A stretch of 64,000 nucleotides of DNA from Gemmatimonadota bacterium (GTDB taxonomy: Bacteria; Gemmatimonadota; Gemmatimonadetes; Gemmatimonadales; Gemmatimonadaceae), in assembly GCA_040388625.1 (NCBI GenBank), contig JAZKBK010000002.1:1-64000 (forward strand). Direction: 5' to 3'. Shown one piece after another: positions 6,772 through 50,741 of the stretch. A program made the position numbers and the translations under genes. The notes beneath the pieces are model-generated. The model saw only the letters and a list, made by a program, of their open reading frames with translations, was not told the origin of the DNA and ran no database searches. Within the stretch, counting starts at the first letter, position 1. The number at the start of each line of letters is the position of its first letter.

Positions 6772-6773
6772 CC

Positions 6774-7613: not shown

Positions 7614-7619
7614 CGAGCG

Positions 7620-7707: not shown

Positions 7708-7819
7708 TGGCGGGCAAATTGCGGTATGGCCATGCCCGCCACGCGAACCTTGTGCGACATGTGGAAGCGATAGTGGATCTCCCCTGATGCTATCCAACCT
7801 CCTTCGTTGAACGGCCCAG

Positions 7820-7834
7820 CACGAACAGTTCGTG
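7820..7834. promoter_or_regulatory. Perfect palindrome CACGAAC-A-GTTCGTG
   Basis: A 7+1+7 palindrome about 140 bp upstream of the FAD oxidoreductase start. It is a possible operator; no cognate regulator can be named. Confidence 0.35.
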
Positions 7835-7973
7835 GACAACTGTACTGCGGTAACGATCCGATATGCATCGCTGTGTCACAGCCTGCCGGATTCGGAAACT
7901 GATGGATGCATCACACCTACGTGATCCCATTGCATCCCCACGCACGTATCCGGCACAAACAGGGGAGTCAGAT

Positions 7974-9359: not shown

Positions 9360-9480
9360 AGGGGAAGGGCGTTGAGGATTGCTACCATCACGAGTACTTT
9401 CGACCGGGCGGAACTGTGCGAACCAGGGCCAGGACGCGCTTTGCGGAATCAAGGATTTCGGATGGCTGTGAAAAAACTGC

Positions 9481-9496
9481 ACTCTGACCCCGGTTT
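9481..9496. repeat. Half copy of the REP-like repeat end
   Basis: ACTCTGACCCCGGTTT is identical over 16 bp to the right arm of the element at 7620-7707. It sits 4 bp before the start of the next gene and so falls in its leader, where it could affect translation. Confidence 0.5.
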
Positions 9497-9500
9497 CTCC

Positions 9501-10013
9501 ATGCTCAAAGCATCGATGTTCGCTCTCGCACTCCTGTGCTCGCCCGCAGCGGTGTTCGCGCAGGAGCTAGCTCCCGACTCGCTCTTTCCGCGCATGGTGG
9601 GGCATTGGGTACTGCGCGGCACCATCGCGCGCCAGCAGACTGTCCATGATGTGGACTTCGAGTGGCTGCTTGGCCGCGAGTACGTTCAGATGCACGAGGT
9701 ATCTCGCGAGCGAGCGCCCAATGGCAGTCCCGCCTACGAAGCCGTGGTACTCTTCGGACGCGATCCCAAGACTGGCGCGTACGCGTGCGTGTGGATGGAC
9801 AACACCGCCGCGGCGGCCTTCCCACCCGAGGGTACTGGCCGCGGGACGGTCACCGGAGATTCGATCTCCTTCCTCTTCCAGTACACCCCCACGACGAGCT
9901 TTCATACGACGTTCCTCTACGACCCGTCGAAAGAGTCCTGGCAATGGCACATGGATAACGACAGTTCCGGAGTACGCCGTCCATTCGCACGGGTCACGTT
10001 GACGCGACGATAA
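9501..10013 (+). CDS. Secreted DUF1579-like protein
   Basis: A 170-residue protein with a clear signal peptide (MLKASMFALALLCSPAAVFA, cleaved before QE). The mature part has the pattern MVGHWVLRGT, LGREYVQMHE, AVVLFGRDPKTGAYACVWMD and WQWHMD, which resembles small beta-barrel proteins of the DUF1579/lipocalin-like kind. The function is unknown, and it probably acts in the periplasm. I chose the ATG at 9501 because the signal peptide begins there; a longer frame back to 9372 would translate the repeat end at 9481-9496 as N-terminal sequence. Confidence 0.65.
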   Translation: MLKASMFALALLCSPAAVFAQELAPDSLFPRMVGHWVLRGTIARQQTVHDVDFEWLLGREYVQMHEVSRERAPNGSPAYEAVVLFGRDPKTGAYACVWMDNTAAAAFPPEGTGRGTVTGDSISFLFQYTPTTSFHTTFLYDPSKESWQWHMDNDSSGVRRPFARVTLTRR

Positions 10014-10123
10014 TGAAGGCGTAGTGACGGAAGGATCGAGCAACGTGCGAGCTGAGCAACGCAAACGACGACCCGGCGCGGCAGTAGCACAAACCCTTTC
10101 GGTATGCACGGCATCTTACCAGC

Positions 10124-11380
10124 ATGCTGATACTTGCCGCCGCACTGGCATCCCTCGCCCTGCATCCACAGCTAGCGTCCTCCAACTCGAGTGATCACCT
10201 GGCTGCAAGCGCCACGACGCTCCCCGCGCCAACCGGCCCTCATCGGATCGGTACCACCATCTATCAATTCGCCGACTCGTCTCGCACCGACCGAATCGCT
10301 CCGCAACCGCGGCGCTACCGCACGATTGTCGTGCAATTGTGGTATCCCACCAATGCGAACCGCGGCGCACGCGCGCCGTACATACCGAACCGCGCACTGC
10401 TCGCCGCCATGCGCTCCGCTGGATATTACGACGCCGATTCCGCTACGATCATGTCGTGGGCGCATATCGACACTCACGCGCTTCTAAATGTTGCCCCCGC
10501 ACGCAGCGAAGCGCTTCCACTGATCATCTTCTCGGAAGGGCAGGGCGTCGCGAGGTCGAATTATACGACGTTAATCGAGGACCTGGCGAGTCACGGATAC
10601 ATCGTCGCAGCCATCGAACATCCATACGGCGGCTTCACCATCCTCAACGATGGACGCGTGCTCACTGCGGCATCAGATACCATTGGCGGAGATTCCGACG
10701 AGGCCGAGGCGCGACGCGTTGACGACTGGGCACGCGACGATTCGCTCGTACTGTCTCGCCTCACGAGCGGCGCCGGAGAGCCGGCGCTCGTCGCGCGCTC
10801 GCTTCAGCCAGACATCGACGCAGCTCGCGTTGGTGCAATGGGCCATTCACTTGGCGGCGCAGCCGCGTTCGAGATGTGCAGGCGCGACTCGCGGATTCGT
10901 GCATGCGTCAACATGGACGGCGCAATGTTCGGTACCGTCGCCGACTCCGGAATCGGCCGTCCCGTACTGATGTTGCGCAGCCATCCAAATTATTCCGATG
11001 CCGATCTGGCGAAGCGCGGCCGTACGCGTAAGGAGTGGGACGTAATGGGCGCATCGATCAAGACGAGCATCGATTCGATTCTCGCCAAACGCCTCGACAC
11101 GCCTTCGTATGTGGTATCCATCCGTGGCACCGGCCATATGAGCTACAGTGACGCGCCGTTCGTCATGCCGACCACCATCACGCGATTCGGCGGAACGGTC
11201 ATCGATGCGTCGCGCGGCTTCGAGATCATTTCGGCGTATACGCGCGCATTTCTCGATCGATATGTCCGCGGGACGGACGGAGCGCTATTGGCGAAGCAGC
11301 CGTCGCCCTTTCCTGAAGTCGTGATTGACCGCGTCGGCAGCGATTCGATGCGGGGGCACGACAGTGCAGTGTTGCCGTAA
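10124..11380 (+). CDS. Secreted alpha/beta hydrolase, PAF-acetylhydrolase/dienelactone-hydrolase like
   Basis: A 418-residue protein with an N-terminal hydrophobic signal (MLILAAALASLALHPQLASS). It has an alpha/beta-hydrolase core: LPLIIFSEGQG strand and oxyanion region, ASHGYIVAAIEHPYGG, and the nucleophile elbow GHSLGG with Ser242. A late GTGHMSYSD supplies the probable catalytic His. The architecture and the QLWYPTNAN strand at the N-terminus fit the platelet-activating-factor acetylhydrolase type II group, which hydrolyses short acyl esters; the substrate here is unknown. It is monocistronic, with an SOS-like palindrome directly after the stop codon. Confidence 0.8.
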   Translation: MLILAAALASLALHPQLASSNSSDHLAASATTLPAPTGPHRIGTTIYQFADSSRTDRIAPQPRRYRTIVVQLWYPTNANRGARAPYIPNRALLAAMRSAGYYDADSATIMSWAHIDTHALLNVAPARSEALPLIIFSEGQGVARSNYTTLIEDLASHGYIVAAIEHPYGGFTILNDGRVLTAASDTIGGDSDEAEARRVDDWARDDSLVLSRLTSGAGEPALVARSLQPDIDAARVGAMGHSLGGAAAFEMCRRDSRIRACVNMDGAMFGTVADSGIGRPVLMLRSHPNYSDADLAKRGRTRKEWDVMGASIKTSIDSILAKRLDTPSYVVSIRGTGHMSYSDAPFVMPTTITRFGGTVIDASRGFEIISAYTRAFLDRYVRGTDGALLAKQPSPFPEVVIDRVGSDSMRGHDSAVLP

Positions 11381-34559: not shown

Positions 34560-35897
34560 TTAGACACCGCTAAATGTGCCGAACACCTGCGTCAGCAGCC
34601 AGTACACGCCGACGCCCAGTATGATCACGGGGATTCCGAATCGAATCCAATAAAAGACCCACATCGGCACGGGTTTCTCGCCGGCACCGAACAGCTCCTT
34701 CAGAGCCGCTGCGCGGTTGAGGCACCACGCCACGGTAACGACCGCGAGCAGCGAACCGAGCGTCTGCATCCCCGAGCCAAACGTGAGATCCCACGGAACG
34801 AAGATCGCGTTGTTTACGCTCGGCGGAATTGCCAGAATGAAACAGGCAGCCGACATCACCCACACCGACCGCGTGCGCGTGAGTCGAGTGTTGTCGGTCA
34901 GTCCCGCGACGAGCACTTCCAGTGCACCGATGTCCGACAGATAGCCGGCGCCGAACAGGCTGGCGAAAAAGAGCGCGCCGAACACCCAACCCGCCGGCAT
35001 CGCCGCGAACACGCGCGGCAACGTATCGAAGATGAGCCCCGGCCCCGATGCAGGCTGCAGACTGAACGAGAACACCGCCGGAATCACGGCGAGTCCTGCG
35101 ATGAGCGACGAGCCCGTATCTCCAATCACCGTCCAGATCGCGGGACGCGCGAGCGGTTCGTCGGCGTGCAGATACGAGCCGTAGACCACCATGAAGGTGC
35201 CGCCGAGTGAAAGCGCGAAAATGGCATGACCGATCGCAGCTGCCATGACGTTCGCAGTGAGATCGGCAAAGCGAAATTCGAGCAGATACCAGCGCACGCC
35301 GATCATCGCTCCGGGCAGTGTCAGCGTGCGGATCATCACGAGAATTGTCACGATCGTCATCGCGGGCAACACGATGATGCTCACCACCTCGATTCCCTTG
35401 CGTACGCCCTTGAGCACGACGAGCGCGCAGGCGAGGAGCACGATGCCGGTGCAGGCCATCTGCAACAGAAAGGACTTCAACACGAAACCGTGATCCGGCG
35501 GCAGGATCGCGGCGGCCTCGAATGAAATGTGCGCAAGCGCGGCGACCTGGCCCACTGTGTAGTAGAGCACCCAGCCGATCACCGCCGAGTAGTAGCCGGT
35601 TGCAGCGGTGACCACGAAGAAGAGGAACCAGCCGACATATCGACCGTAGGGCAGCCCGCCGCGCTGGAATGCGCCGACCGGTCCGCGGCGCGTATGGCGG
35701 CCGAGCGCGAACTCGGCCATCAACGCCGGCACGCCAATGACGACGGATACGAGTGTGTAGAAGAGCACGAACGCCGCGCCGCCGAACTTTCCAACCATGT
35801 ATGGAAAGCGCCAGACGTGGCCAAGCCCGATCGATACCCCGACGATCGTCATGAGCCCGCCGAAGCGGGACGAGAAAGTTTCGCGGGCTTCGGTCAC
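34560..35897 (-). CDS. Sodium-dependent transporter, NSS/SNF family
   Basis: A 445-residue carrier with about 11-12 helices and the LeuT-type unwound first helix: SIGLGHVWRFPYMVGKFGG. The NSS family normally reads GLGN here; Asn27 of LeuT, a Na1 ligand, is replaced by His27. The family also has ALSLGGTFMVVYGSYL and VNNAIFVPWDLTFGSGMQ regions. It probably imports an amino acid or related solute with sodium. The GTG start at 35897 overlaps the aminotransferase stop (GTGA), so it is translationally coupled. Substrate is inferred to feed the aminotransferase and decarboxylase upstream. Confidence 0.88.
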   Translation of the reverse strand: MTEARETFSSRFGGLMTIVGVSIGLGHVWRFPYMVGKFGGAAFVLFYTLVSVVIGVPALMAEFALGRHTRRGPVGAFQRGGLPYGRYVGWFLFFVVTAATGYYSAVIGWVLYYTVGQVAALAHISFEAAAILPPDHGFVLKSFLLQMACTGIVLLACALVVLKGVRKGIEVVSIIVLPAMTIVTILVMIRTLTLPGAMIGVRWYLLEFRFADLTANVMAAAIGHAIFALSLGGTFMVVYGSYLHADEPLARPAIWTVIGDTGSSLIAGLAVIPAVFSFSLQPASGPGLIFDTLPRVFAAMPAGWVFGALFFASLFGAGYLSDIGALEVLVAGLTDNTRLTRTRSVWVMSAACFILAIPPSVNNAIFVPWDLTFGSGMQTLGSLLAVVTVAWCLNRAAALKELFGAGEKPVPMWVFYWIRFGIPVIILGVGVYWLLTQVFGTFSGV

Positions 35898-37045
35898 GCG
35901 GTACGCACTACTTGGGCGAGCACATCCAGCGCGCGATCGACGTCGTCGGTCGTGGAATAGAAGTGCGGCGCGAGCCGGATCACGTCGCCGCGCGCCGAAG
36001 CGATGACGCCGCGCTCGCGCATCGCGCGTTCCACAGCGTGCGAGTCGCCAACAACGAACGCAGTCGTCGCAGTCTTCTGCCGCATATCGTCCGTACCATG
36101 CAGCACCATTCCACGCGCGCGGCCGCCATCGATCAGGCGCTGACCCAGCTCGACGAGCCAGGCGCGTATGGTCGAGGGATCGAGCGCGTTGATGATTTCC
36201 ATGCCGGCGCGCGCGACGTACGCGTTGATAACCGGCGGCGTCCCCGTGTCGAACCGGCTCGCAGTCGGCGACCAGTCGAGCGACCTCGCGTCGAATGCGA
36301 ACGGATTGGCGCGACCGAACCATCCCGTCACGCTCGGCTGCAGCGTATCGACGATCTCCGGCCGCACATACAGAAATGCGATACCGGGAATGCCCATGAG
36401 GAACTTCAGGTTTCCCGACGCCAGGAAATCAACGCCAAGTGCGCGCACATCCAATGGAACGGTGCCAAGCGACTGGTAAGCGTCGACGAACGACAGAGCG
36501 CCGGCGTCGCGCGCGATGGACGCGATGCGCGCCGAATCCTGGATGAGACCATTCATGTAGTAAGCATGACACGCCGAAAGCAGCGCAGTCCGATCATCGA
36601 TGACCGCATCGTACGGGGACACATCGGTGTTCTCACATATGGGAGCCCACGACACCCGCGCGCCGCGTCGCTCCTGCGCCAGCCACACATGCGCCACCGT
36701 TGGAAACTCCGCGTCGCTCACAACTATGTTCGTGCGGCGACCCTGCAGCGGAAGCGCGCTCGCGACGGCGCTCGCCGCTTCGGAGACGGAGCTGAACACG
36801 GCGATATCGTCTGCCGTGGCCCCGATCAGCTTTGCAAATTCGGCCTTGGCCAGCGCCACCTCGGACATCCAGGCGTCCCAGTCCATGCCGCTGCCGTTCC
36901 ACGATTCGAGATAACGCTCGGCAGCGGCGCGCGTAGCGTCGGTCTGCGGAGCCTGCGAGCAGTTGTTCATCGGAATGCACGACGCGAGCAGCGGAATGCG
37001 CCGGCGCCATGCTTCGATATCGTAAGGCGGATGCGTGACGGTCAC
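35894..37045 (-). CDS. Class V PLP-dependent aminotransferase-like enzyme
   Basis: A 383-residue fold-type I PLP enzyme of the class V (cysteine desulfurase/isopenicillin N epimerase/kynureninase) group. Landmarks are DIAVFSSVSEAASAVASAL (phosphate-binding region), VDAYQSLG with Asp189 contacting the pyridine N, and SGNLKFLMGIPG with Lys214 as the Schiff-base lysine. The C-terminus has FDTGTPPVINAYVARAGMEI. Activity could be transamination, beta-elimination or epimerisation. GTG start overlaps the upstream decarboxylase subunit and its stop overlaps the transporter start, so it sits in the middle of a coupled operon. Confidence 0.8.
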   Translation of the reverse strand: MTVTHPPYDIEAWRRRIPLLASCIPMNNCSQAPQTDATRAAAERYLESWNGSGMDWDAWMSEVALAKAEFAKLIGATADDIAVFSSVSEAASAVASALPLQGRRTNIVVSDAEFPTVAHVWLAQERRGARVSWAPICENTDVSPYDAVIDDRTALLSACHAYYMNGLIQDSARIASIARDAGALSFVDAYQSLGTVPLDVRALGVDFLASGNLKFLMGIPGIAFLYVRPEIVDTLQPSVTGWFGRANPFAFDARSLDWSPTASRFDTGTPPVINAYVARAGMEIINALDPSTIRAWLVELGQRLIDGGRARGMVLHGTDDMRQKTATTAFVVGDSHAVERAMRERGVIASARGDVIRLAPHFYSTTDDVDRALDVLAQVVRTA

Positions 37046-37632
37046 GAGTTTTGTCCCGTCGCGCGCTTGCGATCCTGAATCCAGCGCCTGAAACGGAATG
37101 CGTTCTCGGGAAGTTGCAGATCCATTCCATAGTGCTCCGGCCCGACTGCAGCGACCTTTGCGACGATGACGCTCAGATCGTTGCGCTCGAGCGCCGCGAT
37201 GAACGCCTCACCGAAACCGACGGCCGTATCCACTGCGGCGACATGTTCGATGCCGGCGCCGCGCGCGATCGCGGCGATGTCGGTGATCCCGGAAGTTGTG
37301 TGCGAATCGAATCCGCCGGTTGAGAGCAGGCTGCCGTTGTCGAATACTATATGAATGAGATTCCTGGGCCTGTAGCGCGCGAGCGTTGCGAACGTGCCGA
37401 GGTTCATGAGCACCGAGCCGTCGCCATCGAGTACGACAACACGCTCGGCGGGCAGGTGCATCGCGAGTCCGAGGCCGATGGATGACGCGAGTCCCATGGC
37501 ATGTTGCAGATAGAAAAAGTTCTCGCGATGGCCGAGGTTGTAGAGCTCCTGGGCGGAAGCCCCCATGATCGTGACGACGAGCGCGTCTGTGAGCTCGGGA
37601 TAGATCATTTCGAGACAGCGTGCGCGTTCCAT
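37042..37632 (-). CDS. ThDP-dependent decarboxylase, beta (PP-domain) subunit, ComE-like
   Basis: A 196-residue C-terminal half of a thiamine-diphosphate enzyme, like the beta subunit of sulfopyruvate decarboxylase (ComE) or the PP half of phosphonopyruvate decarboxylase. The ThDP/Mg site is visible: VVVLDGDGSVLMNLG (GDG at 70-72) followed after 26 residues by FDNGSL (N99). LGHRENFFYLQHAMGLASSIGLGLA is the family block before it. The ATG at 37632 shares its A with the alpha-subunit stop, and a GGAGG inside the alpha 3' end serves as ribosome site. It presumably forms an alpha-beta complex acting on a 3-substituted pyruvate. Confidence 0.82.
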   Translation of the reverse strand: MERARCLEMIYPELTDALVVTIMGASAQELYNLGHRENFFYLQHAMGLASSIGLGLAMHLPAERVVVLDGDGSVLMNLGTFATLARYRPRNLIHIVFDNGSLLSTGGFDSHTTSGITDIAAIARGAGIEHVAAVDTAVGFGEAFIAALERNDLSVIVAKVAAVGPEHYGMDLQLPENAFRFRRWIQDRKRATGQNS

Positions 37633-38141
37633 CAATCCTCCATGAGATCGCGCGTGAGCAACAACGCGACCGGAGAGAGGGAGCTCTGCGAGAACGTCCA
37701 CGCCTCGCGAATCTGTTTCGCCACCTGCGCTGGCTCGCGCGCGTACTCGAAGGGAATGCCGAGCGCGCGCAGAACGGCTTCTGTGACGATGCCGCCGCGT
37801 GTGTGCCATGGATATGGCTCGCCCCAGTGTCCGCGCAGCGCGATGAGCATGCAGAGCGGAACGTGATAGAGTTGAGCGAGCGAGACGATCCCGTTGATCG
37901 CGCCCAGGAAGCCGTGGTTCTGCATGAGAAGCGCGTGCGGCGTGCCGGCGAAGTACGCGCCTGCCGCGATGCCGATCGCCTCTTCCTCTTTCGCGACCTG
38001 AACCAGCTGCATATCGGGATCGCTCTCCGCGCGCTGGAGGAGCAGCCCGAGCCACGTTTCGGGGAGCGCCGATACGGATTTGATACCGGCGGCCTTGATG
38101 CCGTCGAAGATGATCTTGCTGTTGTCGTACGAAACGGTCAT
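37632..38141 (-). CDS. ThDP-dependent decarboxylase, alpha (Pyr-domain) subunit, ComD-like
   Basis: A 169-residue N-terminal half of a ThDP enzyme. VSALPETWLGLLL, VAKEEEAIGIAAGAYFAG with the conserved Glu of the Pyr domain (near residue 54) that activates ThDP, and LLMQNHGFLGAING match ComD of sulfopyruvate decarboxylase. This is the first gene of the operon. ATG 38141 has no ribosome site; a GTG at 38177, 8 nt after a -10 box, is an attractive leaderless start that would add 12 residues (VTEAVSVFLRAA). No phosphoenolpyruvate mutase gene is near, so phosphonopyruvate is less likely than a sulfo- or other 2-oxo acid. Confidence 0.8.
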   Translation of the reverse strand: MTVSYDNSKIIFDGIKAAGIKSVSALPETWLGLLLQRAESDPDMQLVQVAKEEEAIGIAAGAYFAGTPHALLMQNHGFLGAINGIVSLAQLYHVPLCMLIALRGHWGEPYPWHTRGGIVTEAVLRALGIPFEYAREPAQVAKQIREAWTFSQSSLSPVALLLTRDLMED

Positions 38142-38185
38142 GGCTGCGCGGAGGAAGACGGAAACAGCTTCGGTCACCCGCGCGA

Positions 38186-38214
38186 AGTATCGTGTGCATC
38201 GCGTGGCGTGTCGA
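38186..38214 (-). promoter_or_regulatory. Promoter of the decarboxylase/aminotransferase/NSS operon
   Basis: On the minus strand TCGACA (38214-38209), exactly 17 bp, GATACT (38191-38186), then 8 nt to GTG 38177. The -35 differs from TTGACA at one base. Transcription would begin at about 38178, giving a leaderless mRNA if GTG 38177 is the start. Confidence 0.5.
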
Positions 38215-38237
38215 GGCCCGCTGCGACCCCGACCGGC

Positions 38238-38255
38238 TTGCACCAATTGGTGCAA
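38238..38255. promoter_or_regulatory. Perfect 18-bp palindrome TTGCACCAATTGGTGCAA, candidate activator site
   Basis: An uninterrupted perfect palindrome. Its centre is about 70 bp upstream of the predicted start of transcription and 24 bp above the -35, a class I activator position rather than a repressor one. LacI, GntR, Lrp or CRP-type proteins bind such sites; a GntR gene lies at 39907-40839. Confidence 0.65.
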
Positions 38256-38534
38256 ATGGCCAGCGGTCCATCCCACCATCCGTACGCGTGCTGCGGCCGT
38301 GCGCCGCCAAGGTTCAAATGAAGCACCGTGACCGGTCGGTGGCGTTCCACTACCATTTCATTACATCGCCGCGCAGCGGGATCTCGTACTTTCGTGAAGC
38401 TCCTCGCGGGTCGGAATGGCACAGCGCACGTTGTCTGGAATCACGGTCTCGACAGCGCGCTCGTCACAGATCGACCGATGGCGGCAGGATCTTGATGTGG
38501 GATTCTGAAGAATTGCTCATCTCAGGCGGAGATA

Positions 38535-41042: not shown

Positions 41043-41777
41043 TTGCGCCGTACGGAAACGCATCTCGCGTTGCGGCATTTGTCTGTCCTGCTGGTGGGGA
41101 GCGCGGCGTTGGTCGTCGCACGGCCGGCGGCGGCGCAGAGCAATTGCAGTTTCATCTGCAAGCCGACGATCTCCGTTGAGCCGGCCATGATCGAGAACCA
41201 TCTCTTCTCGCACCCGACCACGCGCACACTCGCGACCGGCGCGGTGCAGCGGCTGCCGTCCACGACCAATCTCGAGCTCATTTTCGCGGCGGGAGCATCG
41301 ACGCCGATCAAGCGGCTCTCGCTTTACGGCAGCGTGCAGTGGCTCCCCAACGCCAGCGAAAAGCGGAATCCGTTCACCCTGTACGGCGCGAGCGACATCG
41401 GCGACAAGGTGCGCGCGAACGCACCAACCGTCAGCGCTGGCATCTCGCTTGGCATCGTCGACGCGAGGGACACTAACGGGTGGCTCGGCGTGGACGCGCA
41501 CATCGGTGATCTGTACAGCAGCGCAGCGCGGCCGCATGACTCTGGGGCGTACACGCACAAGCTGGATCTCGGGCTCGCCGCGAACTGGTCCTTGTTCGCA
41601 GGCTTGCCGACGCAAACCTACATGCACGATGTCGTGCTTTCCACGCTGCTGGACTACGTAGCAACGGGCCTGCCGAAAGCGGGCGACGAGGTTCCCAAAG
41701 GCGAGCGCGTGTTCCTGACCGGCGTGCACTCGGCGTCGCTGATCGTCGGGCTCGTATTCCCACTCGCATCGAAATAG
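41043..41777 (+). CDS. Hypothetical secreted/outer-membrane-like protein
   Basis: A 244-residue protein with a signal peptide (LSVLLVGSAALVVARPAAAQ) and then alternating strands (TNLELIFAAGASTPIKRLSLYGSVQWLP, SAGISLGIVDARDT, HKLDLGLAANWSLF, ASLIVGLVFPLASK), ending in a Phe-containing beta signal. This fits a small outer-membrane beta-barrel. TTG start with GGGGGAG about 8 nt upstream. It lies directly before the SMP-30-like gene (3 bp) and may be the first gene of the alcohol-oxidation/respiration operon; its role there is unknown. Confidence 0.6.
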   Translation: MRRTETHLALRHLSVLLVGSAALVVARPAAAQSNCSFICKPTISVEPAMIENHLFSHPTTRTLATGAVQRLPSTTNLELIFAAGASTPIKRLSLYGSVQWLPNASEKRNPFTLYGASDIGDKVRANAPTVSAGISLGIVDARDTNGWLGVDAHIGDLYSSAARPHDSGAYTHKLDLGLAANWSLFAGLPTQTYMHDVVLSTLLDYVATGLPKAGDEVPKGERVFLTGVHSASLIVGLVFPLASK

Positions 41778-41780
41778 ACA

Positions 41781-42716
41781 ATGCCAATTCACTCATATCT
41801 TGTCGCTCCGCGCATCACCGCAGCGCCTGCAATCGCCACCGCAATCCTGCTTGCATTCGGACCCGTAACGGCTCGTACGCAACAGCCGGTGAGCGTCAAC
41901 AGCAGCAGCGTCGTCACCATCGCTGGTGTTGGATTCTCGTCGCCGGAGAACCTGGTGTACGATCCGCAGTCCAATGTGTACCTGGTTTCCAACATCAATG
42001 GAGGCGCGCGTGCGCGTGATGCGAACGGATTCATCAGCCGCGTCGCACCCGACGGAAAGATCCTCCAGCTCAAGTGGATCGACGGAAGTCACGCAGCCAC
42101 GCGGCTCGATGCTCCGAAAGGCCTCGCCATTCACGGAGACACGCTCGCTGTAGCCGACGTGGGAGCGGTGCGCTTCTTCGATCGTCGCACAGGCGCAGCG
42201 CTGGGCGTTCGCATGGTACCAGGTCAGTTGATGAACGACGTCGCGTTCGCCTCCGATGGAAGCGTATACGTCACCGATACGGGCCCCGACGCGGGAAAGC
42301 CCGACAGCGCGGACCACGACGCGATCTACCGGCTATACCACGACGGCCGTACCGCGACTATCGCGAAAGGTCCCAGTCTGATGGGTCCCGATGGACTGGT
42401 CGTCACCGACAGCGGAATCCTTTACGCAACGTTCAAGGGACGCAGCGTCGAAGCGATCTCCAGTTCGGGCACGCACCGCGTGGTTGCAACGCTTCCGGGC
42501 AAACAGGCCGATGGTCTTCGACAGCTGCCAAGCGGGTCGTACATAGTGAGCAGCTGGGGTGCAAAGACCGTTTACAGGATGGAGCCGGACGGGAAGGTTC
42601 AGGCCGTGTTGACTGGCATCACGTCCCCAGCAGGTGTTGCCTACGATACAACGCACGACAAACTGGCCATCACGTCGATGCAGGACAACAAGCTTTACCT
42701 TCTCTCTCTGAGGTGA
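41781..42716 (+). CDS. Secreted SMP-30/gluconolactonase-like beta-propeller
   Basis: A 311-residue protein with an N-terminal hydrophobic signal (about 10-30) and a six-bladed NHL/SMP-30-type propeller: FSSPENLVYDPQSNVYLVSNING, RLDAPKGLAIHGDTLAVADVG, LMNDVAFASDGSVYVTDTG, MGPDGLVVTDSGILYATF, DGLRQLPSGSYIVSSWG. Members bind Ca/Zn and hydrolyse lactones; some are only structural. It directly precedes the PQQ dehydrogenase gene with a TGATG overlap, so a role in handling lactone products of sugar or alcohol oxidation in the periplasm is plausible. Confidence 0.75.
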   Translation: MPIHSYLVAPRITAAPAIATAILLAFGPVTARTQQPVSVNSSSVVTIAGVGFSSPENLVYDPQSNVYLVSNINGGARARDANGFISRVAPDGKILQLKWIDGSHAATRLDAPKGLAIHGDTLAVADVGAVRFFDRRTGAALGVRMVPGQLMNDVAFASDGSVYVTDTGPDAGKPDSADHDAIYRLYHDGRTATIAKGPSLMGPDGLVVTDSGILYATFKGRSVEAISSSGTHRVVATLPGKQADGLRQLPSGSYIVSSWGAKTVYRMEPDGKVQAVLTGITSPAGVAYDTTHDKLAITSMQDNKLYLLSLR

Positions 42717-44677
42717 TGCAGCCAGTGGACAATCCCTCGATTCGCATTGCGTTCCGCTCGCTGATCTCTCTGGCGTTCGCGGGCGTTGCTGTCACCGCCT
42801 GCACTACTCATGAATATCCTGGTCGCCGCGCAAATGACGCGGGTGATTCATCGGGTGTATCGGCGGTCGCACCAAGCGCCACCAGCACTTCCGCGGGTGA
42901 GAACGTGACTGGCGCAACAGCTCCAACCGGCCCGGGATGGGGAATTCCGGCGGACGGCGACTGGACTACGCAGGGGCGGGACTACGCCAATACGCGATAC
43001 AGTCCACTTGCCGAGATAGATACCAACAACGTCTCGTCGTTGCGAATTGCATGGAGCTTCAATGATGGGGTGTTGCACGGTCATGAAGGGACGCCGCTCG
43101 TCGCGAACAACACGATGTATCTCGTCACGCCATTTCCGGACATCGCGTACGCACTCGACCTCACCAAGCCCGGCGCACCGATCAAGTGGACGTACAGACC
43201 CAACCCCTCGCCGATCGCGATAGGAAAGGCGTGCTGCGACGTGGTGAATCGCGGATGGCAGCTCGCTGACGGAAAGCTCATCTACAATCTGCTGGACGGT
43301 CACACCGTTGCCGTGGACGCCGCGACGGGGAAGGAAGTGTGGCGCACGCAGGTGTACGACGTGACGCAGGGTGTGACGATGACGATGGCGCCGGTGATCG
43401 TGAAGGACAAGGTGCTGGTTGGCAACAGCGGCGGAGAGATGGGTGTGCTTGGCTCGCTCACCGCGCTCGATCTCAAGACGGGAAAGATCGACTGGCAGGC
43501 GACGAGCACGGGTCCGGATTCGCTCGTCAAGATCGGCCCCGACTTCAAGCCGTTCTACTCGTGGATGCAGGGCAAAAATCTGGGAGAGACTACGTGGCCC
43601 GCGGGCGCGTGGAAGAACGGCGCCGGCGCGGTGTGGGGATGGATCACCTACGACCCGGACCTCAATCTCATCTACGCCGGCACGAGCAACACGGGACCAT
43701 GGAATGCGCAGCAGCGCCCCGGGCTCAATCTCTGGACCAGCGGCGTGTTCGCCCGCGATCCGGATAACGGTATGGCGAAATGGGCGTTCGTGTTCACCCC
43801 ACACAACGAGTGGGACTACGACGGCGTGAACGAGAACATTCTCGTAAACCTTCCGATCAACGGAAAACAGCGGAAGGTGATGGTGCAATTCAACCGTAAC
43901 GGTTTCGCGTACACGATCGACCGCGCGACTGGCGAAGTACTGGTGGCAAGTCCGTTCGGTCACGAAAACTGGGCTTCTGGAATCGATTCGGTCACCAAGA
44001 TGCCAATAGTCGTTCCGGAGAAGAAGACAGAGGTGCCGGGACATTGGGTGCGCGACATCTGTCCCGCTGATATCGGCGTCAAGGACGAACAACCGGCGGC
44101 GTTCTCGCCACGCACGGGTCTGTTCTACGTGCCAGTGCAGAACATCTGCATGGATTACAAGGGACGCGAAGTGAGCTACATCGCGGGCACTCCGTACTGG
44201 GGGGCAGACATGACACGCCACGTGGGGCCCGGCGGAAACTACGGCGAGTTCATCGCATGGAACGCATCCACCGGCAAGAAGGTCTGGGGCATTCCGGAGA
44301 AATTTCTGGTGTACAGTGGCGTTCTCGTAACCGGCGGCGACGTCGCGTTCTACGGTACGGTGGACGGCTGGTTTCGCGCCGTCAACGCGCGAACGGGAAA
44401 GATCCTCTGGTCTCAGAAACTCGGCTCCGGAATCATTGGCGCACCGATGACGTTCCGCGGACCGGACGGACATCAATACGTATCCGTACTGGCGGGTGTT
44501 GGCGGGGCTGCGATGGTTACAAAGGCGATGCCCGGATTTCCTGCGCGCGGTGGAACGCTCTACACGTTCGCGCTCGACTCGGCCGTACCAGCGATCGGGC
44601 AGACGTCGGCACCGGGCGTTCAGGGATCACAGAGTGGCGGATCCAGTAATGGCGCTCAAGCAAAGGGGAAGCGCTGA
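42716..44677 (+). CDS. Lanthanide-type PQQ-dependent alcohol dehydrogenase (XoxF/ExaF-like), lipoprotein
   Basis: A 653-residue quinoprotein with an eight-bladed propeller. Diagnostic sites: vicinal cysteines ACCDVVNRG (C173-C174), Glu241 in GGEMGVLG, Asn325 in GTSNTGPWN, and EWDYDGVNE with catalytic Asp367 plus Asp369. The extra Asp two residues after the catalytic one is the marker of lanthanide-dependent enzymes; calcium MxaF has Ala there. It oxidises primary alcohols and passes electrons to cytochrome c. A lipobox (VTAC, C29) is unusual, since most family members are soluble periplasmic proteins. It overlaps the SMP-30-like and cytochrome genes (TGATG) and leads into caa3 oxidase genes. 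Confidence 0.88.
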   Translation: MQPVDNPSIRIAFRSLISLAFAGVAVTACTTHEYPGRRANDAGDSSGVSAVAPSATSTSAGENVTGATAPTGPGWGIPADGDWTTQGRDYANTRYSPLAEIDTNNVSSLRIAWSFNDGVLHGHEGTPLVANNTMYLVTPFPDIAYALDLTKPGAPIKWTYRPNPSPIAIGKACCDVVNRGWQLADGKLIYNLLDGHTVAVDAATGKEVWRTQVYDVTQGVTMTMAPVIVKDKVLVGNSGGEMGVLGSLTALDLKTGKIDWQATSTGPDSLVKIGPDFKPFYSWMQGKNLGETTWPAGAWKNGAGAVWGWITYDPDLNLIYAGTSNTGPWNAQQRPGLNLWTSGVFARDPDNGMAKWAFVFTPHNEWDYDGVNENILVNLPINGKQRKVMVQFNRNGFAYTIDRATGEVLVASPFGHENWASGIDSVTKMPIVVPEKKTEVPGHWVRDICPADIGVKDEQPAAFSPRTGLFYVPVQNICMDYKGREVSYIAGTPYWGADMTRHVGPGGNYGEFIAWNASTGKKVWGIPEKFLVYSGVLVTGGDVAFYGTVDGWFRAVNARTGKILWSQKLGSGIIGAPMTFRGPDGHQYVSVLAGVGGAAMVTKAMPGFPARGGTLYTFALDSAVPAIGQTSAPGVQGSQSGGSSNGAQAKGKR

Positions 44678-45261
44678 TGACTATCCATGCGTTCGCTTTT
44701 CGCAGCGCGCCATGTTTTCGCGCCGCGGCGATTGCGTTGTTGATCGGCAGCGTTCAGGCGTGCAAGGGGCAGCCTGAACTGCTGCGGGAAGGATCCACTG
44801 GTGGCATTCCACTGCCAAAGGATTCCACTCTCGCACGTGTTGCGCTTGGCGATCTCGCGGGATCCACGCGCAACACGCTTCTCACCTCTATCAAGAATCC
44901 CTACGAGGGCAACACGGGTGCGATCGAGGCCGGAGGTGAGCTTTTCATTCGCATGAACTGTGTTGCGTGTCACGGTTACGACGCCAGAGGCGGCATGGGT
45001 CCGGATCTCACCGATACGTACTGGCGTTATGGCGGATCGCCTGCCGAGATATACAAGTCGATAAGTGAAGGACGACCGCAGGGAATGCCGGCGTGGGGAG
45101 CGATGCTTACGAGCGACGAATTATGGAAGCTCACCGCGTATGTTCAGAACCTGGGCGGCAGTTTTCCAGCGGCGCTTGCCGAGCAGGGGAAGCAGGGCAA
45201 CCTCGGCACCACACTGGACACCGCAACCGGCGTGTTGAAGGGCCGCCAGAGCGAACCGTAG
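44677..45261 (+). CDS. Class I cytochrome c lipoprotein
   Basis: A 194-residue c-type cytochrome: lipobox VQAC (C29), one heme motif CVACH (C95, C98, H99) and the axial Met in GRPQGMPAWG (M137). It probably accepts electrons from the preceding PQQ dehydrogenase and hands them to the caa3 oxidase encoded next. Its ATG shares the A of the dehydrogenase stop. It takes the place of XoxG, though with no obvious sequence signature of that group. The C-terminal 25 residues are disordered. Confidence 0.85.
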   Translation: MTIHAFAFRSAPCFRAAAIALLIGSVQACKGQPELLREGSTGGIPLPKDSTLARVALGDLAGSTRNTLLTSIKNPYEGNTGAIEAGGELFIRMNCVACHGYDARGGMGPDLTDTYWRYGGSPAEIYKSISEGRPQGMPAWGAMLTSDELWKLTAYVQNLGGSFPAALAEQGKQGNLGTTLDTATGVLKGRQSEP

Positions 45262-45266
45262 ACGTG

Positions 45267-46292
45267 ATGTCACTCCCATACATCATAGCGCAAACGCGGC
45301 TCGACTCGCATGCGCCGAGTTACATGCGCCCAGCCGGCGCTCCAGCCGGCGGCGAGGCGGTGCTCGGCTGGGCACTCACGATCATTGCAGTCGCTGTAAC
45401 GGTAGTCATAGCGATTCTGCTCGTGGTTGCGGTGCTGCGAAAGCGCGAGGATCCGGACAGCACTACTAAACGGAATGCGTCCGACGGTACACCTCGCGTC
45501 AAGATAGTACCTGGCCTGTCCTGGATCTACGTCGGTCTCGCGATCACCGTGGTGATCCTGCTGGGAGCGTTCGGTGCAACTGTCGTATCGCTCGCCAGCT
45601 CGGCGCACGCGCCATCACGGCCGAAGATCACCATGGACATAACAGCGCACCAATGGTGGTGGGAAGTGCGCATGGAAGACTCGGTGCCGAGCGATGCATT
45701 CGTTACGGCGAACGAGATTCATGTACCGGTGGGAGTCCCGGTGGAAATTCGAGTCCAGTCGCAGGATGTGATTCACTCGTTCTGGGTTCCGGAGCTGTTT
45801 GGCAAGATGGATGTCATCCCCGGGCAGATCAACGTGACGTGGATGCGAGCCGATCGCAGCGGAACGTATCGGGGTGCCTGCGCAGAGTATTGCGGCCTGC
45901 AGCACGCGCACATGGCCTTCGCGATCACCGCGGAACCGCAGAAGATGTACGACAGATGGGCTGCGGCGCAGCGCGCCACCAGTGCCAATTCGCTACCGCC
46001 GAATGCAGCTCTGCCGCCGAACGTGCTTCATGGCGAGGCCGTCTTCGTTGCGACGTGCAGCGGATGCCACACGGTTCGTGGGACGAACGCGCTGGGACGT
46101 GTCGGGCCGGATCTCACTCACATTGCGAGCCGGCAGACCATTGGCGCGGGATTGATCGACAACACACCGGCAAATCTGATGCGATGGGTATCTGATGCGC
46201 AGGCGATGAAGCCGGGCGTGCTCATGCCCAGGATGGACCTCCGCCACGACGACGTAGCCGCCGTCGTCTCTTATCTCACGACGCTTCACTGA
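45267..46292 (+). CDS. ctaC: caa3-type cytochrome c oxidase subunit II with fused cytochrome c
   Basis: A 341-residue subunit II. Two membrane helices (about 31-57 and 84-110) precede the cupredoxin CuA domain: ITAHQWWWEV, VIHSFWVPELFGKMD (H170), and C205-AEY-C209-GLQ-H213-AH-M216. A C-terminal cytochrome c (CSGCH, 264-268, with Met in GVLMPRM) makes it caa3-type. It accepts electrons from the cytochrome encoded just upstream, 5 bp away. GTG 45264 is an alternative start. It is followed 19 bp later by the fused subunit I/III. Confidence 0.92.
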   Translation: MSLPYIIAQTRLDSHAPSYMRPAGAPAGGEAVLGWALTIIAVAVTVVIAILLVVAVLRKREDPDSTTKRNASDGTPRVKIVPGLSWIYVGLAITVVILLGAFGATVVSLASSAHAPSRPKITMDITAHQWWWEVRMEDSVPSDAFVTANEIHVPVGVPVEIRVQSQDVIHSFWVPELFGKMDVIPGQINVTWMRADRSGTYRGACAEYCGLQHAHMAFAITAEPQKMYDRWAAAQRATSANSLPPNAALPPNVLHGEAVFVATCSGCHTVRGTNALGRVGPDLTHIASRQTIGAGLIDNTPANLMRWVSDAQAMKPGVLMPRMDLRHDDVAAVVSYLTTLH

Positions 46293-46311
46293 CGAGCGCA
46301 AGGAGCACAAC

Positions 46312-48816
46312 GTGGCAGCAACGCTCGACCCGGCCGTGACCACTTCTCTCCAGGCAACCTGGGAAACGCCGCCCGGAATCCGCGGGTTCCTGACGTCGGT
46401 CGATCACAAGACGATCGGCAAGCGCTACCTGGTGACCGCATTCGTCTTTCTCCTGCTCGGCGGACTCGAGGCAGCCGCGATGCGCGCGCAGCTGGCAGCC
46501 GCGAACCTGCATCTGCTGACACCGGAACAATACAACCAGCTCTTCACCGTGCACGGCGTGACGATGATCTTTCTGTACGCCGCGCCAATCCTGTCGGGGT
46601 TCAGCAACTACCTGTGGCCGCTGATGCTCGGCTCGCGCGACATGGCATTCCCGCGATTGAACGCGTTGAGCTACTGGCTGTTCGTTGGTGCGGGGTTGTT
46701 CATCTATTCGAGCGTGTTCAACGGCCAGATGCCAAATGCGGGCTGGTTCGACTACGTGCCGTACGCGGAGCGCGCTTTCGACCCTGGTCGCAATATCGAC
46801 TTCTACGCTCTGGGGCTGTTGCTTCTCGGCATATCCACCACCGTCGGATCGGCCAATTTCATCGTCACGCTGTTCAAGACGCGTGCACCGGGAATGTCTC
46901 TCAACAGGTTGCCGATCATCGTGTGGGGAACGCTCACCGCGTCGATCGTCAATCTGTTCGCGTTGCCGTCGCTGTCGGTAGCCCTGATCTTCCTGTATCT
47001 CGACCGACGCTACGGCACGCACTTCTTCGATCCCGCGTCGGGTGGCAAACCGTTGCTCTGGCAGCATCTGTTCTGGATTTTCGGACATCCCTGGGTGTAC
47101 GTGATCGTATTGCCGGCGATGGGAATCGTATCGGATGCACTCCCTACGTTCTGCCGGCGGCCACTGGTGGGTTACACTTTTGTCGCGCTCGCCACCATGG
47201 CTACGGGAGTGCTGGGATTCGGAGTGTGGCTGCACCACATGTTCGCGACCGGAATCCCGCCATTGGGGCTCGCGTTCTTCGGCGGTGCGAGCATGATCAT
47301 CGCGATACCGAGCGCGGTTGGAGTGTTCGCGTGGCTCGCGACCATATGGTACGGCCGGCCCGTCCGAACCACCGCGTTCCTGTTCATGGTTGGATTCATA
47401 CTGCTGTTCACGATCGGCGGTGTTTCCGGCGTGATGACAGCCGCTGTCCCGTTCGACTGGCAACTCACCGACACGTATTTCATAGTCGCCCATCTGCATT
47501 ACGTACTCGTCGGCATCAACGTATTTCCTGTATTCGCCGGATTCTACTACTGGTTTCCGAAGATGACTGGCAGGATGCTCGATGAGCGACTGGGGCGCTG
47601 GAATTTCTGGACGATGTTCGTTGGAGTGAATGTTCTGTTCTTTCCGATGCACTGGCTCGGCCTCATGGGAATGCCACGACGCATCTACACCTATGACTCC
47701 GGGCTTGGCTGGAGTACGACGAATCTCGTTGTAACGATCGGCGCGTATCTCTTTGCAATCGGCGTACTGCTCTTCATCATCAACGCAATTCGTTCACTGA
47801 AACATGGCGTGCTGGCCGGCAACAATCCGTGGGATGCGCCGACTCTGGAATGGTCGGTGAGCTCACCGCCACCGCCATACAACTTCGCGACGATTCCGGT
47901 GATCGCGAGTCGGCACCCCTTGTGGGAGGATCGGCTCCCCGAAGAGGGGGGCGGTCACAGCGTGCTGGGCAACGGGCCGTTGCTCGACACGGGACGCGAG
48001 ACGTTCGGGATAACTCCACTGGACGCCGAGCCGGATGTGGTGATGAAAATGCCGTCCGACAGTATCTGGCCATTCATGCTTGCGATAGCGCTGACGTTGA
48101 CGTGCTTTGGGCTCGTGTGGCCGTCCACTGTCTGGACGGCGACCGGTTTGCTGATCGCAACCATTTCCGTAATTGCCTGGTTCAGTCCCCGGTCCGGAGC
48201 AAGGCAGCACGAGACCGTGGAGACATTGTTCGGAATGCTTCCGGTAGACGGCGAGGGATATCACTCAGTAGCGTGGTGGGGAATGGCGTGCGTCATCGCC
48301 ACCGAAGCCGCGTTCTTCGCATATCTGCTCGCAAGCTACGCCTATCTCTCGGCATCTTCGATCAACCCGTGGCCGGGCGCGAGTCCCGATCTTCGTCTTG
48401 CGCTGCCGAACACGATCATTCTCATAGTGAGTAGCATCGTGCTTCAGTACGGCCGTCGACAGGGCGAGAACGGACGCCCGTCACGCCTGCGTGGAGCGAT
48501 GCTCCTCACAGTGTTGCTCGGTATTGTATTTCTCGTGATCCAGGCGGCGGAGTTTCACAGCAAGCTCGCGACAGTGAGACCGACGACGGACGCGTATGGC
48601 TCACTGTTCTATACGATCACGGGCTTTCACGGAGCGCACGTGCTTGCCGGATTGGTAATGCTCGTTACTGTCCTGGTGCGTGGATCGCGCCGCGCGGCGC
48701 ACGGAGGAAACAGCGGATGGCTCGCCATCGCGAATGTGACGATGTACTGGCACTTCGTCGACGTGGTCTGGATCTGCGTCTTCGCGTCGCTGTACGTCCT
48801 GCCGCACGTACGATGA
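46312..48816 (+). CDS. ctaD: Cytochrome c oxidase fused subunits I and III
   Basis: An 834-residue fusion. Residues 1 to about 560 form subunit I: heme a ligand H81 (HGVTMIF), CuB ligands H259 with cross-linked Y263 (FGHPWVYVIVLP) and H308-H309 (WLHHMFATG), and AHLHYVLVG for the other hemes. After two or three linker helices, residues about 630-834 are subunit III (WWGMACVIATEAAFFAYLLASYAYL, TGFHGAHVLAGLVML, MYWHFVDVVWICVFASLYVLP). It reduces O2 to water and pumps protons. Such I-III fusions occur in Thermus-type caa3 enzymes. GTG start; GAGCGCAAGGAG lies just upstream. Subunit IV may be the next gene. Confidence 0.93.
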   Translation: MAATLDPAVTTSLQATWETPPGIRGFLTSVDHKTIGKRYLVTAFVFLLLGGLEAAAMRAQLAAANLHLLTPEQYNQLFTVHGVTMIFLYAAPILSGFSNYLWPLMLGSRDMAFPRLNALSYWLFVGAGLFIYSSVFNGQMPNAGWFDYVPYAERAFDPGRNIDFYALGLLLLGISTTVGSANFIVTLFKTRAPGMSLNRLPIIVWGTLTASIVNLFALPSLSVALIFLYLDRRYGTHFFDPASGGKPLLWQHLFWIFGHPWVYVIVLPAMGIVSDALPTFCRRPLVGYTFVALATMATGVLGFGVWLHHMFATGIPPLGLAFFGGASMIIAIPSAVGVFAWLATIWYGRPVRTTAFLFMVGFILLFTIGGVSGVMTAAVPFDWQLTDTYFIVAHLHYVLVGINVFPVFAGFYYWFPKMTGRMLDERLGRWNFWTMFVGVNVLFFPMHWLGLMGMPRRIYTYDSGLGWSTTNLVVTIGAYLFAIGVLLFIINAIRSLKHGVLAGNNPWDAPTLEWSVSSPPPPYNFATIPVIASRHPLWEDRLPEEGGGHSVLGNGPLLDTGRETFGITPLDAEPDVVMKMPSDSIWPFMLAIALTLTCFGLVWPSTVWTATGLLIATISVIAWFSPRSGARQHETVETLFGMLPVDGEGYHSVAWWGMACVIATEAAFFAYLLASYAYLSASSINPWPGASPDLRLALPNTIILIVSSIVLQYGRRQGENGRPSRLRGAMLLTVLLGIVFLVIQAAEFHSKLATVRPTTDAYGSLFYTITGFHGAHVLAGLVMLVTVLVRGSRRAAHGGNSGWLAIANVTMYWHFVDVVWICVFASLYVLPHVR

Positions 48817-49274
48817 GTACGCGGAACAATGCGGCGCCGACGCTCGGCGGGAGCAGCGTGGACCATCCGTCGCCATCACGCGGTACCGTAGGCCTTGCGT
48901 CGTTGTGGTTCGGGTTGGGCGGTGGCCCGATTGCGTGGAGTGTGTTCACGATCGCGATCTACGCTATCGCCGCACAGGCGTGTTACCCCAGGATGGTACC
49001 GCTGTCGACTCCAACGATGGGCGCCAGAACGTTGTATGTGTCACTGATCATCATCTCGTGTGCTGCCGTGATCGTTGGCGTTGCAGCGGGCCTGGTGTCC
49101 ATGCGAAACTGGCGACGCACGAGCGGGGAAATCAGCGGCGATACGCACTGGGCACTCGATACCGGTGAGGGGCGCACACGGTTCATGGCGGTGTCGAGCG
49201 TGATGACGAGCGCGGTATTCCTGCTGGCGATTCTCGTGGATGTGGCCGCGATCGTGGTAATCAAGCCATGCTGA
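48813..49274 (+). CDS. Small membrane protein linked to the oxidase
   Basis: A 153-residue protein with three membrane helices (about 24-50, 66-89 and 126-150). It overlaps the oxidase gene by four bases (ATGA), so it is translationally coupled and probably an accessory subunit or assembly factor. It has Gly-rich GLASLWFGLGGGPIAWSVFTIAIY and a CYP motif but no family signature I recognise. CtaF/subunit IV proteins are usually smaller. Confidence 0.65.
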   Translation: MSTRNNAAPTLGGSSVDHPSPSRGTVGLASLWFGLGGGPIAWSVFTIAIYAIAAQACYPRMVPLSTPTMGARTLYVSLIIISCAAVIVGVAAGLVSMRNWRRTSGEISGDTHWALDTGEGRTRFMAVSSVMTSAVFLLAILVDVAAIVVIKPC

Positions 49275-49355: not shown

Positions 49356-50741
49356 ATGACCGTGACCGCCTCCCGTATCATCGCCGTCGCACTGCTGATC
49401 GCACCCGTTGGTGCTACGGCCCAGTCGTCCCTCCCGCGCGCGCCCGGTGCCCGAATCGTCACCGTTACACCAACGGGCAAGACCGGAAGCGAGCCCTCGA
49501 TCGCCATCAATCACTACAGCCCCAACCAGATAGCCGTCACAGCCGGCAGCGGGCTGCTGGCCTATTCCACCGATTCGGCCCGCACCTTCACCACGGTGAA
49601 TCCGGCCGGCGAAGGCGGGACGACTGGCGGCGATCCGTCGATGACCTTCGACGACCGCGGCAACCTCTACTTCTCATATCTCGCATTCCGTAAGCTCGGG
49701 ACTGCGTCCTACTGGGCCCACGGCGCCACCGAAAATGGCGTCTGGGTAGTGCGCTCACCCGACGGCGGAAAGACGTGGAAGAAGCCAGTAGGCGTGAAGA
49801 CGTGGACGGGACACGAGAGCAACATCAAGTTCGAGGACATGCCGCGTATCTGGGCCGACCAGAACGAGAAGAGTCCGCATCGCGGCAATATCTATTACGC
49901 GTGGATCGAGTGGGGTCTCGAGAATTCCATAGTTCTGTACTCGCGCTCGACAGATCAGGGAGCCACCTGGTCCAAACCGGTGCGGATCAGCACGATCGCA
50001 GGTTATCCGCGCGACGACAACGGATCGGTGGTCGGAATCATCGGAACCGTCGCGCCCGACGGAACGGTGTACATCGTCTGGAATCAGGGACTCAACATCA
50101 CGCTCGCCGTGTCGAAGGACGGAGGTGCGACGTTCGCGCCGTCCAGGCCGATCATCGATGTTGGACCGCCCTACTTCGGCGGAACGGGCGGTGTTCCGGG
50201 CGTCGCGAGAACGATGGGCTTTCCGCAGATAAGTCTGGACCGCAAGTCGGGCGAACTGTACGTGACGTGGAGTGATTTCAGAAATGGCGACGTGGATGTG
50301 TTCATCTCACGCTCGTCCGATCACGGCAAGACCTGGACGCCAGCGATGCGCGTGAACGACGATCCGATTCACGACGGAAACGATCAGTTCTTCCAGTGGA
50401 TGGCGGTCGATCCCGTCAACGGTGACGTGTACGTGCAGTTCTACGACCGTCGCGATGATCCCAACAACAGGAACACCCGCCTTACACTCGCGCGCTCGAC
50501 CGACGGTGGAAAGACTTTCAGGAACTACGACTGGTCGGATCGCTCATTCGCCGGTGAGAACGCGAGCCTCGGCGATTACATGTGGATGGTCGCGTACGAC
50601 GGACGTGTGTACGGCGTCTGGGCCGAGGCTGCGCCGGAAGGATATCAGGTAGAGGGGAATCCGAATCGGCCTGCGCCGACGGTGAGACGCACACCGACGA
50701 TCTTCAGGGTGGGGACGGCAGATTTTCACGGAGTGAAATAA
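49356..50741 (+). CDS. Secreted sialidase-like (BNR repeat) protein
   Basis: A 461-residue protein with a signal peptide (RIIAVALLIAPVGATAQ) and a beta-propeller with repeated Asp-box/BNR turns: STDSARTFTTV, SPDGGKTWKKPV, STDQGATWSKPV, SKDGGATFAP, SSDHGKTWTPAM, STDGGKTFRN. Sialidases and related exo-glycosidases, but also non-enzymatic exo-alpha proteins, share this. The Arg triad of true sialidases is not obvious, so enzymatic activity is unproven. TATATT at 49315-49320 and GAGGA about 8 nt before the ATG look like the promoter and ribosome site. Confidence 0.75.
   Translation: MTVTASRIIAVALLIAPVGATAQSSLPRAPGARIVTVTPTGKTGSEPSIAINHYSPNQIAVTAGSGLLAYSTDSARTFTTVNPAGEGGTTGGDPSMTFDDRGNLYFSYLAFRKLGTASYWAHGATENGVWVVRSPDGGKTWKKPVGVKTWTGHESNIKFEDMPRIWADQNEKSPHRGNIYYAWIEWGLENSIVLYSRSTDQGATWSKPVRISTIAGYPRDDNGSVVGIIGTVAPDGTVYIVWNQGLNITLAVSKDGGATFAPSRPIIDVGPPYFGGTGGVPGVARTMGFPQISLDRKSGELYVTWSDFRNGDVDVFISRSSDHGKTWTPAMRVNDDPIHDGNDQFFQWMAVDPVNGDVYVQFYDRRDDPNNRNTRLTLARSTDGGKTFRNYDWSDRSFAGENASLGDYMWMVAYDGRVYGVWAEAAPEGYQVEGNPNRPAPTVRRTPTIFRVGTADFHGVK

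Follow-up and report, generated by a model that had tools for sequence, protein, structure and literature searches.

The window analyzed here comprises 64,000 nucleotides of a Gemmatimonadota soil bacterium (contig JAZKBK010000002.1, positions 1 to 64,000), whose 3.84 Mb genome is 99% complete. Seven plus-strand genes fill positions 41043-49274, among them those of a XoxF-type dehydrogenase of the family using pyrroloquinoline quinone (PQQ), a c-type cytochrome and a caa3-type cytochrome c oxidase. This kind of operon is already known; the unexpected part is the loss of proton-channel residues in its oxidase. The best explanation of the whole, which we consider probable, is a short periplasmic respiratory chain of known kind with a non-canonical family A oxidase. 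A lipid-tethered XoxF-type dehydrogenase would oxidize an alcohol, most likely methanol, with PQQ and a lanthanide, and the electrons would pass through a tethered cytochrome c into subunit II, first its cytochrome domain and then CuA, and on to heme a and finally the heme a3-CuB center, which would reduce oxygen. PQQ would be imported, not synthesized by the cell. The oxidase, its catalytic center intact and its proton-uptake channels altered, would probably conserve less energy for each electron than the genome's two other aa3-type oxidases, and would serve periplasmic dehydrogenases as an electron sink.

The oxidase is specified by a subunit II gene (45267-46292), whose product carries the CuA ligands and a C-terminal cytochrome c domain with a CxxCH motif, and by a gene for fused subunits I and III (46312-48816), in which the heme and CuB ligands are intact and the positions of Glu286 and Lys362 (Rhodobacter sphaeroides numbering, also used for the residue counts below) hold Trp and Gly, respectively. 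We compared 79 subunit I sequences from xoxF neighborhoods, which the subunit I tree splits into two types, 28 of type I (including the window) and 51 of type II, apart from the genome's two unlinked oxidases. Residues H284, Y288, H333, H334, H419 and H421 are kept in 79/79 sequences, and H102 in all 78 that cover it. The K-channel lysine (K354 in Paracoccus denitrificans, K362 in R. sphaeroides) is gone from all 79. The D-channel glutamate of helix VI (E278 in P. denitrificans, E286 in R. sphaeroides) is replaced throughout type I, by Trp in 27 sequences and by Phe in one; D132 is Asp in 26 of these sequences and Glu in two, and N139 and N207 are retained. Type II, to which the oxidase of a second operon in the same genome belongs, keeps the glutamate (50 Glu, one Asp), has Gln for the K-channel lysine in 50/51 sequences, and shows N121, D132 and N207 mostly replaced. 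Alignment to the Mycobacterium smegmatis aa3 oxidase gives the same two losses, glutamate and lysine, for the window oxidase.

The A1 and A2 families, the D-channel glutamate and the H-X-Arom-X-E motif of nitric oxide reductases in helix VI have been defined previously (PMC3084760). The tyrosine that substitutes for the glutamate in A2 is not at its place in the window oxidase, which reads FGHPWVY with no Tyr-Ser before HP, and by these definitions the enzyme is, at the level of its sequence, neither A1 nor A2. A nitric oxide reductase was considered and rejected: the cross-link tyrosine is kept, and the stretch H-P-W-V-Y shares the aromatic residue of the reductase motif and has Tyr instead of its Glu. 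The best full-length match of the fused subunit I-III is the caa3 oxidase of Thermus thermophilus (2yev), which we take to be a canonical, proton-pumping member of type A2. Both enzymes have the fusion of subunits I and III and the cytochrome c domain on subunit II, but the window oxidase differs in the Trp at the helix VI glutamate position, the missing Tyr substitute and the missing K-channel lysine.

Mutation of the D-channel glutamate or the K-channel lysine strongly impairs model oxidases. Since the corresponding residues are lost here, protons must be taken up differently, and oxygen reduction by the neighborhood oxidases is probably coupled to altered proton pumping or to none. An alternative scenario is a normal proton-pumping caa3 enzyme of unremarkable energetics, in which other proton routes replace the missing residues. 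Archaeal family A oxidases have also lost the K-channel (PMC8239418), and because of this precedent, which tells against our interpretation, K-channel loss need not mean loss of pumping. Moreover, no covered sequence has lost a metal ligand or the cross-link tyrosine, and the window retains N121, D132, N139 and N207 at the D-channel entry. Nevertheless, 28/28 type I sequences have lost both the K-channel lysine and the helix VI glutamate, with no A2 tyrosine in place, whereas the genome's two unlinked aa3-type oxidases keep all channel residues, including the K-channel lysine. We therefore regard normal pumping as unlikely, though as a serious contender, and favor an oxidase with altered channels. 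In the open-access literature, we found no report of XoxF-linked oxidases without proton channels.

The partners of this oxidase are not restricted to XoxF. A first-pass annotation of the window had proposed a dedicated lanthanide-dependent respiratory complex; the conserved link to xoxF supports this in part, but close relatives of the oxidase lie in xoxF-free operons beside GMC or FdhF/YdeP oxidoreductases, which does not fit an exclusive pairing. A plasmid collection yielded 18 records with type I-like oxidases at 65-70% identity, the next identity being 54%. Eight plasmid operons of types I and II were inspected: four have xoxF, one of these being directly preceded by pqqABCDE, and four are without xoxF. 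The xoxF-free group includes a Caballeronia operon with a GMC oxidoreductase, operons of Rhizobium leguminosarum and Caballeronia grimmiae (the latter oriented oppositely) adjoining FdhF/YdeP oxidoreductases, and a Burkholderia multivorans operon with no clear dehydrogenase. All eight oxidases are devoid of the K-channel lysine, the five of type I have Trp for the glutamate, and all nest among the xoxF-linked sequences. The oxidase is more aptly described as a module that partners periplasmic oxidoreductases, XoxF being the most frequent. Going further, we put forward tentatively, and with less than even confidence, that these enzymes may form a distinct family A subfamily without canonical proton pumping, that they may serve as electron sinks whose partners, lanthanide methanol dehydrogenases or other oxidoreductases of the periplasm, are interchangeable, and that in Gemmatimonadota the dehydrogenase may be lipid-anchored beside its partners.

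The first-pass annotation had also stated that PQQ dehydrogenases are usually not linked to an oxidase operon, which is wrong for this group. Clusters of xoxF3 and cox genes from Acidobacteria and Gemmatimonadetes, with CoxI, CoxII, CoxIII, CtaG and cytochromes, have been published (Voutsinos et al. 2024; PMC10875860), with a hypothetical protein of 110-130 amino acids behind CoxIII, between CoxIII and CtaG. The same article credits an earlier review (Keltjens et al. 2014) with cox genes in xoxF3 operons, and a 2024 review draws cox and CtaG into its xox cluster figure. The window operon resembles these published clusters in its xoxF, XoxG-type cytochrome, CoxI, CoxII, CoxIII and protein of about 110-130 amino acids, and some of the genomes described there are likewise without PQQ synthesis. 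In contrast to those clusters, the window operon has fused subunits I and III, no CtaG or XoxJ, a barrel and an SMP-30 gene at its front, and a XoxF whose clade is sister to the main cox-linked clade. The word "lipoprotein" does not occur in the article's main text, and no treatment of proton-channel residues was seen in the parts read.

A XoxF relative is present in 81/298 genomes of the phylum, and we compared the neighborhoods of these loci together with 80 named loci. The order xoxF-cytc-coxB-coxA-coxC-small recurs in four phyla (Gemmatimonadota, Acidobacteria, Pseudomonadota and Verrucomicrobia), with Mesorhizobium, Microvirga, Azospirillum, Inquilinus, Sphingomonas and Lysobacter among the cultured carriers, and a same-strand COX1 lies nearby for 79 of the 109 XoxF entries of the tree with enough flank or a visible oxidase. 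Since gene order recurs across genera and phyla, the layout is not a product of chance. The second operon of this order in the same genome (contig C1: L026 (G000:C1:611001-631000) 4871-11289, minus strand) has unfused subunits I and III and an oxidase of the other type, type II. Just upstream of it lie succinate dehydrogenase-like and malate dehydrogenase-like genes, so named from the sequence only. Across 73 operons, XoxF and COX1 distances are correlated (Mantel r 0.615; 0/999 permutations as high), a value to which shared descent contributes. Furthermore, in the XoxF and COX1 trees alike, one operon from Acidobacteriaceae and one from Phenylobacterium cluster with that of the window. The XoxF and oxidase pair is conserved and, judging from these patterns, seems to pass jointly from one phylum to another. 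The view of the locus as one operon with a lanthanide-type site and a plausible path from alcohol to oxygen is supported.

Among the oxidases compared, the I-III fusion is confined to that of the window, the three relatives nearest to it and two or more separate lineages. On the B. multivorans plasmid (L237, 7917-10547), an oxidase of the same family with no xoxF nearby is annotated as subunit I, has 876 residues and is apparently a separate I-III fusion. A plasmid of Mesorhizobium sp. INR15 (L236, 1205-12688) carries pqqABCDE, xoxF, a cytochrome, coxB, ctaD, cox3, an assembly protein and another cytochrome in a row, apparently a self-sufficient version of the window operon in a cultured strain; its oxidase is closely related to that of the window. 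Culturable carriers of a type I oxidase include this strain and Methylocella tundrae T4 (plasmid p1).

The dehydrogenase itself (42716-44677) scores 596 bits against TIGR03075, the model for PQQ dehydrogenases of the methanol/ethanol family (cut-off 480), and contains EWDYDGVNE, as well as ACCDVVNRG with its adjacent cysteines, in agreement with the lanthanide-type D-Y-D assignment made at first pass. Its closest solved relative is XoxF2 of Methylacidiphilum fumariolicum SolV (4mae; 608 bits), and aligned to it, Glu172, Asn256, Asp299 and the extra Asp301 (SolV numbering) are all present. The lanthanide-type site is thus evident in the sequence, and lanthanide use would be expected from it. 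The two proteins have identical metal ligands and D-Y-D, but belong to different clades, and the window protein has a lipobox whereas SolV XoxF2 is presumably a soluble periplasmic protein.

In a XoxF tree with references for XoxF1, 2, 5 and MxaF (and none for XoxF4), the cox-bearing lineages and their cox-free sisters fall on one side of a branch separating them from these references (support 100). One large clade, anchored by D-W-D sequences of Microvirga, is cox-linked in 72/75 cases that show an oxidase or have sufficient flank, and the XoxF of the genome's second operon falls inside it. The window XoxF belongs to the sister clade, together with 44 sequences showing no cox genes (the flank is sufficient in 21) and a small group with cox genes that includes the Acidobacteriaceae and Phenylobacterium operons. 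A single clade of all cox-linked XoxF is rejected (p-AU 1.6e-11). Trp300 has been noted for the XoxF3 of Methylobacteriaceae (PMC8561711). Position 300 is Tyr in the window protein and Trp in two Microvirga loci; because most cox-linked sequences of the Microvirga-anchored clade have Tyr, D-W-D is a local mark.

The gene directly downstream (44677-45261) encodes a class I c-type cytochrome with CxxCH, a candidate XoxG by its position and a probable lipoprotein. Lipobox cysteines at position 29 had been claimed for both dehydrogenase and cytochrome, and both are there: VTAC, a good lipobox, with Thr after the Cys in XoxF, and the atypical SVQAC, with Gln at -2 and Lys after the Cys, in the cytochrome. 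Many evident lipoboxes escaped a strict pattern; a relaxed, alignment-anchored one was used for the wider comparison. With this heuristic, which leaves a few doubtful calls (e.g., L137, L142, L195, L203) among sequences that are not independent, a lipobox-like N-terminus occurs in 39/42 assessable cox-linked XoxF of Gemmatimonadota, 3/27 of Pseudomonadota and 0/7 of Acidobacteriota; in two of the three Gemmatimonadota exceptions the hydrophobic stretch still ends in Ala-Cys. By this pattern the XoxF lipobox is a habit of the phylum Gemmatimonadota rather than of the window operon. In Escherichia coli, Asp after the lipoprotein Cys retains the protein at the inner membrane, a rule that may not apply here. 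With Thr and Lys, not Asp, after the Cys, the lipid anchors tell neither which membrane is involved nor that the two proteins sit next to the oxidase, as the first-pass annotation had supposed. The open-access literature provided no report of a lipoprotein XoxF.

Profile searches for PQQ synthesis genes in the 99% complete genome found no match for PqqC or PqqD, and the only PqqB/PqqE matches (TIGR02109 and TIGR02108) were far below cut-off and were rejected as PQQ genes. As a control, PqqC is well over cut-off in 30 of 80 XoxF-bearing relatives; it was not found in a genus-mate (G021) or in two genomes sharing the operon (G079 and G244). A lack of PQQ genes and lanthanide transport had been named at first pass as an outcome that would refute the proposed complex; the PQQ half of this does apply, as the synthesis genes are not found, but a receptor offers a way round. 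Encoded outside the operon (C1:172484-174370), it is 32% identical to E. coli PqqU over nearly its whole length, and among the receptor models it scores highest with that for PqqU, at 333 bits, below the NCBIfam cut-off of 1200 bits. It shares with E. coli PqqU (PMC12124388) an aromatic residue at position 99, where it has Phe for Y99, and Arg at R365 and R536; Phe is accepted at this position in the same study, which reports PqqU in 183 Gemmatimonadetes and PQQ scavenging as common there. PQQ is probably imported by this receptor-like protein rather than made by the cell. Alternatively, the operon may lie idle in its host, as the cofactor cannot be made, and the missing PqqB, C, D and E and the same lack of PqqC in the three related genomes are in line with such a view. 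Yet all operon reading frames are intact, their proteins are 93-99% identical to those of the genus-mate and the active site is conserved, which together with the PqqU-like receptor and the frequency of scavenging in the group makes an idle operon very improbable. A further PQQ-dehydrogenase-like protein is encoded elsewhere in the genome (L027 (G000:C6:533000-545000) 4924-6405), with 309 bits for the PQQ model and 273 for the "acido-empty-quinoprotein" model, both below cut-off.

Several features weigh against the chain as we draw it. The counterpart of PqqU R304 is ambiguously aligned in the receptor, and the lipobox of the cytochrome is the atypical one described above. In addition, neither XoxJ (model TIGR03871) nor Fae has a match in the genome, and because these methylotroph partners are missing, methanol is not certain as the substrate. 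The operon also contains a gene for a secreted SMP-30/gluconolactonase-like beta-propeller (41781-42716; PF08450, 40.6 bits, cut-off 26.3) with putative lactonase activity. Another possibility is, thus, that a sugar-like or other alcohol is oxidized instead of methanol, the SMP-30-like protein hydrolyzing the resulting lactone and the oxidase being a general partner of periplasmic dehydrogenases. The related Caballeronia operon, in which a GH15 glycosidase accompanies the GMC oxidoreductase and an SMP-30 gene lies further downstream, would agree with this. However, few operons have the SMP-30 and barrel genes, most relatives having xoxF without them, and the window dehydrogenase is nearest to methanol-oxidizing XoxF enzymes. 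Nor is the missing Fae telling, since formaldehyde pathways are found in only three XoxF genomes of PMC10875860. A non-methanol substrate therefore seems rather unlikely to us, and methanol remains the preferred one.

Two further genes complete the operon. At its front, a TTG-initiated gene (41043-41777) encodes a secreted protein of 244 amino acids, predicted as a small outer-membrane beta-barrel of OmpA/OmpX/OmpW shape (mean pLDDT 70; OmpA, OmpX and NspA matched only at low TM-score in a fold search), which accompanies only the nearest relatives of the operon. At its end, a three-helix membrane protein (48813-49274; helices predicted), widespread and conserved behind subunit III in such operons, has two near-invariant cysteines and no match in a fold search; it is the counterpart of the protein of about 110-130 amino acids placed between CoxIII and CtaG in PMC10875860.

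All genes named by the first-pass annotation are present on one strand and tightly packed, as both junctions and profile matches agree, although its starting point at 41043 belongs to the unlisted 244-amino-acid gene and the SMP-30-like gene begins at 41781. Gaps measure 3-19 bp and overlaps 1-4 bp: a 3 bp gap at 41777/41781 between the barrel and SMP-30-like genes, TGATG with 1-bp overlaps at 42716 (SMP-30-like/xoxF) and 44677 (xoxF/cytochrome), gaps of 5 bp at 45261/45267 and 19 bp at 46292/46312, and ATGA with a 4-bp overlap at 48813/48816 (subunit I-III/three-helix protein). The observation behind the annotation is thus confirmed, and its interpretation overall partly supported. A promoter and terminator scan of the operon gave no signal above shuffled sequence. 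Directly behind the operon is a BNR/Asp-box propeller gene (49356-50741), and the AT-rich stretch before it may hold its own promoter. Elsewhere in the window, the minus strand (35894-38279) has split alpha and beta genes resembling sulfopyruvate/phosphonopyruvate decarboxylase, with genes for a sodium-dependent transporter and a class V aminotransferase next to them; no decarboxylase score reaches its curated cut-off.

In some soils, PQQ methanol dehydrogenases rank with the most abundant proteins (PMC12124388). If the partner oxidase pumps abnormally, the energy yield of methanol oxidation in soil would have been overestimated. In addition, a natural family in which both residues, the D-channel glutamate and the K-channel lysine, are absent would offer a ready test of proton supply in heme-copper oxidases. 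Finally, the lipid-anchored XoxF together with PQQ scavenging suggests that these bacteria may depend on their neighbors for the cofactor.

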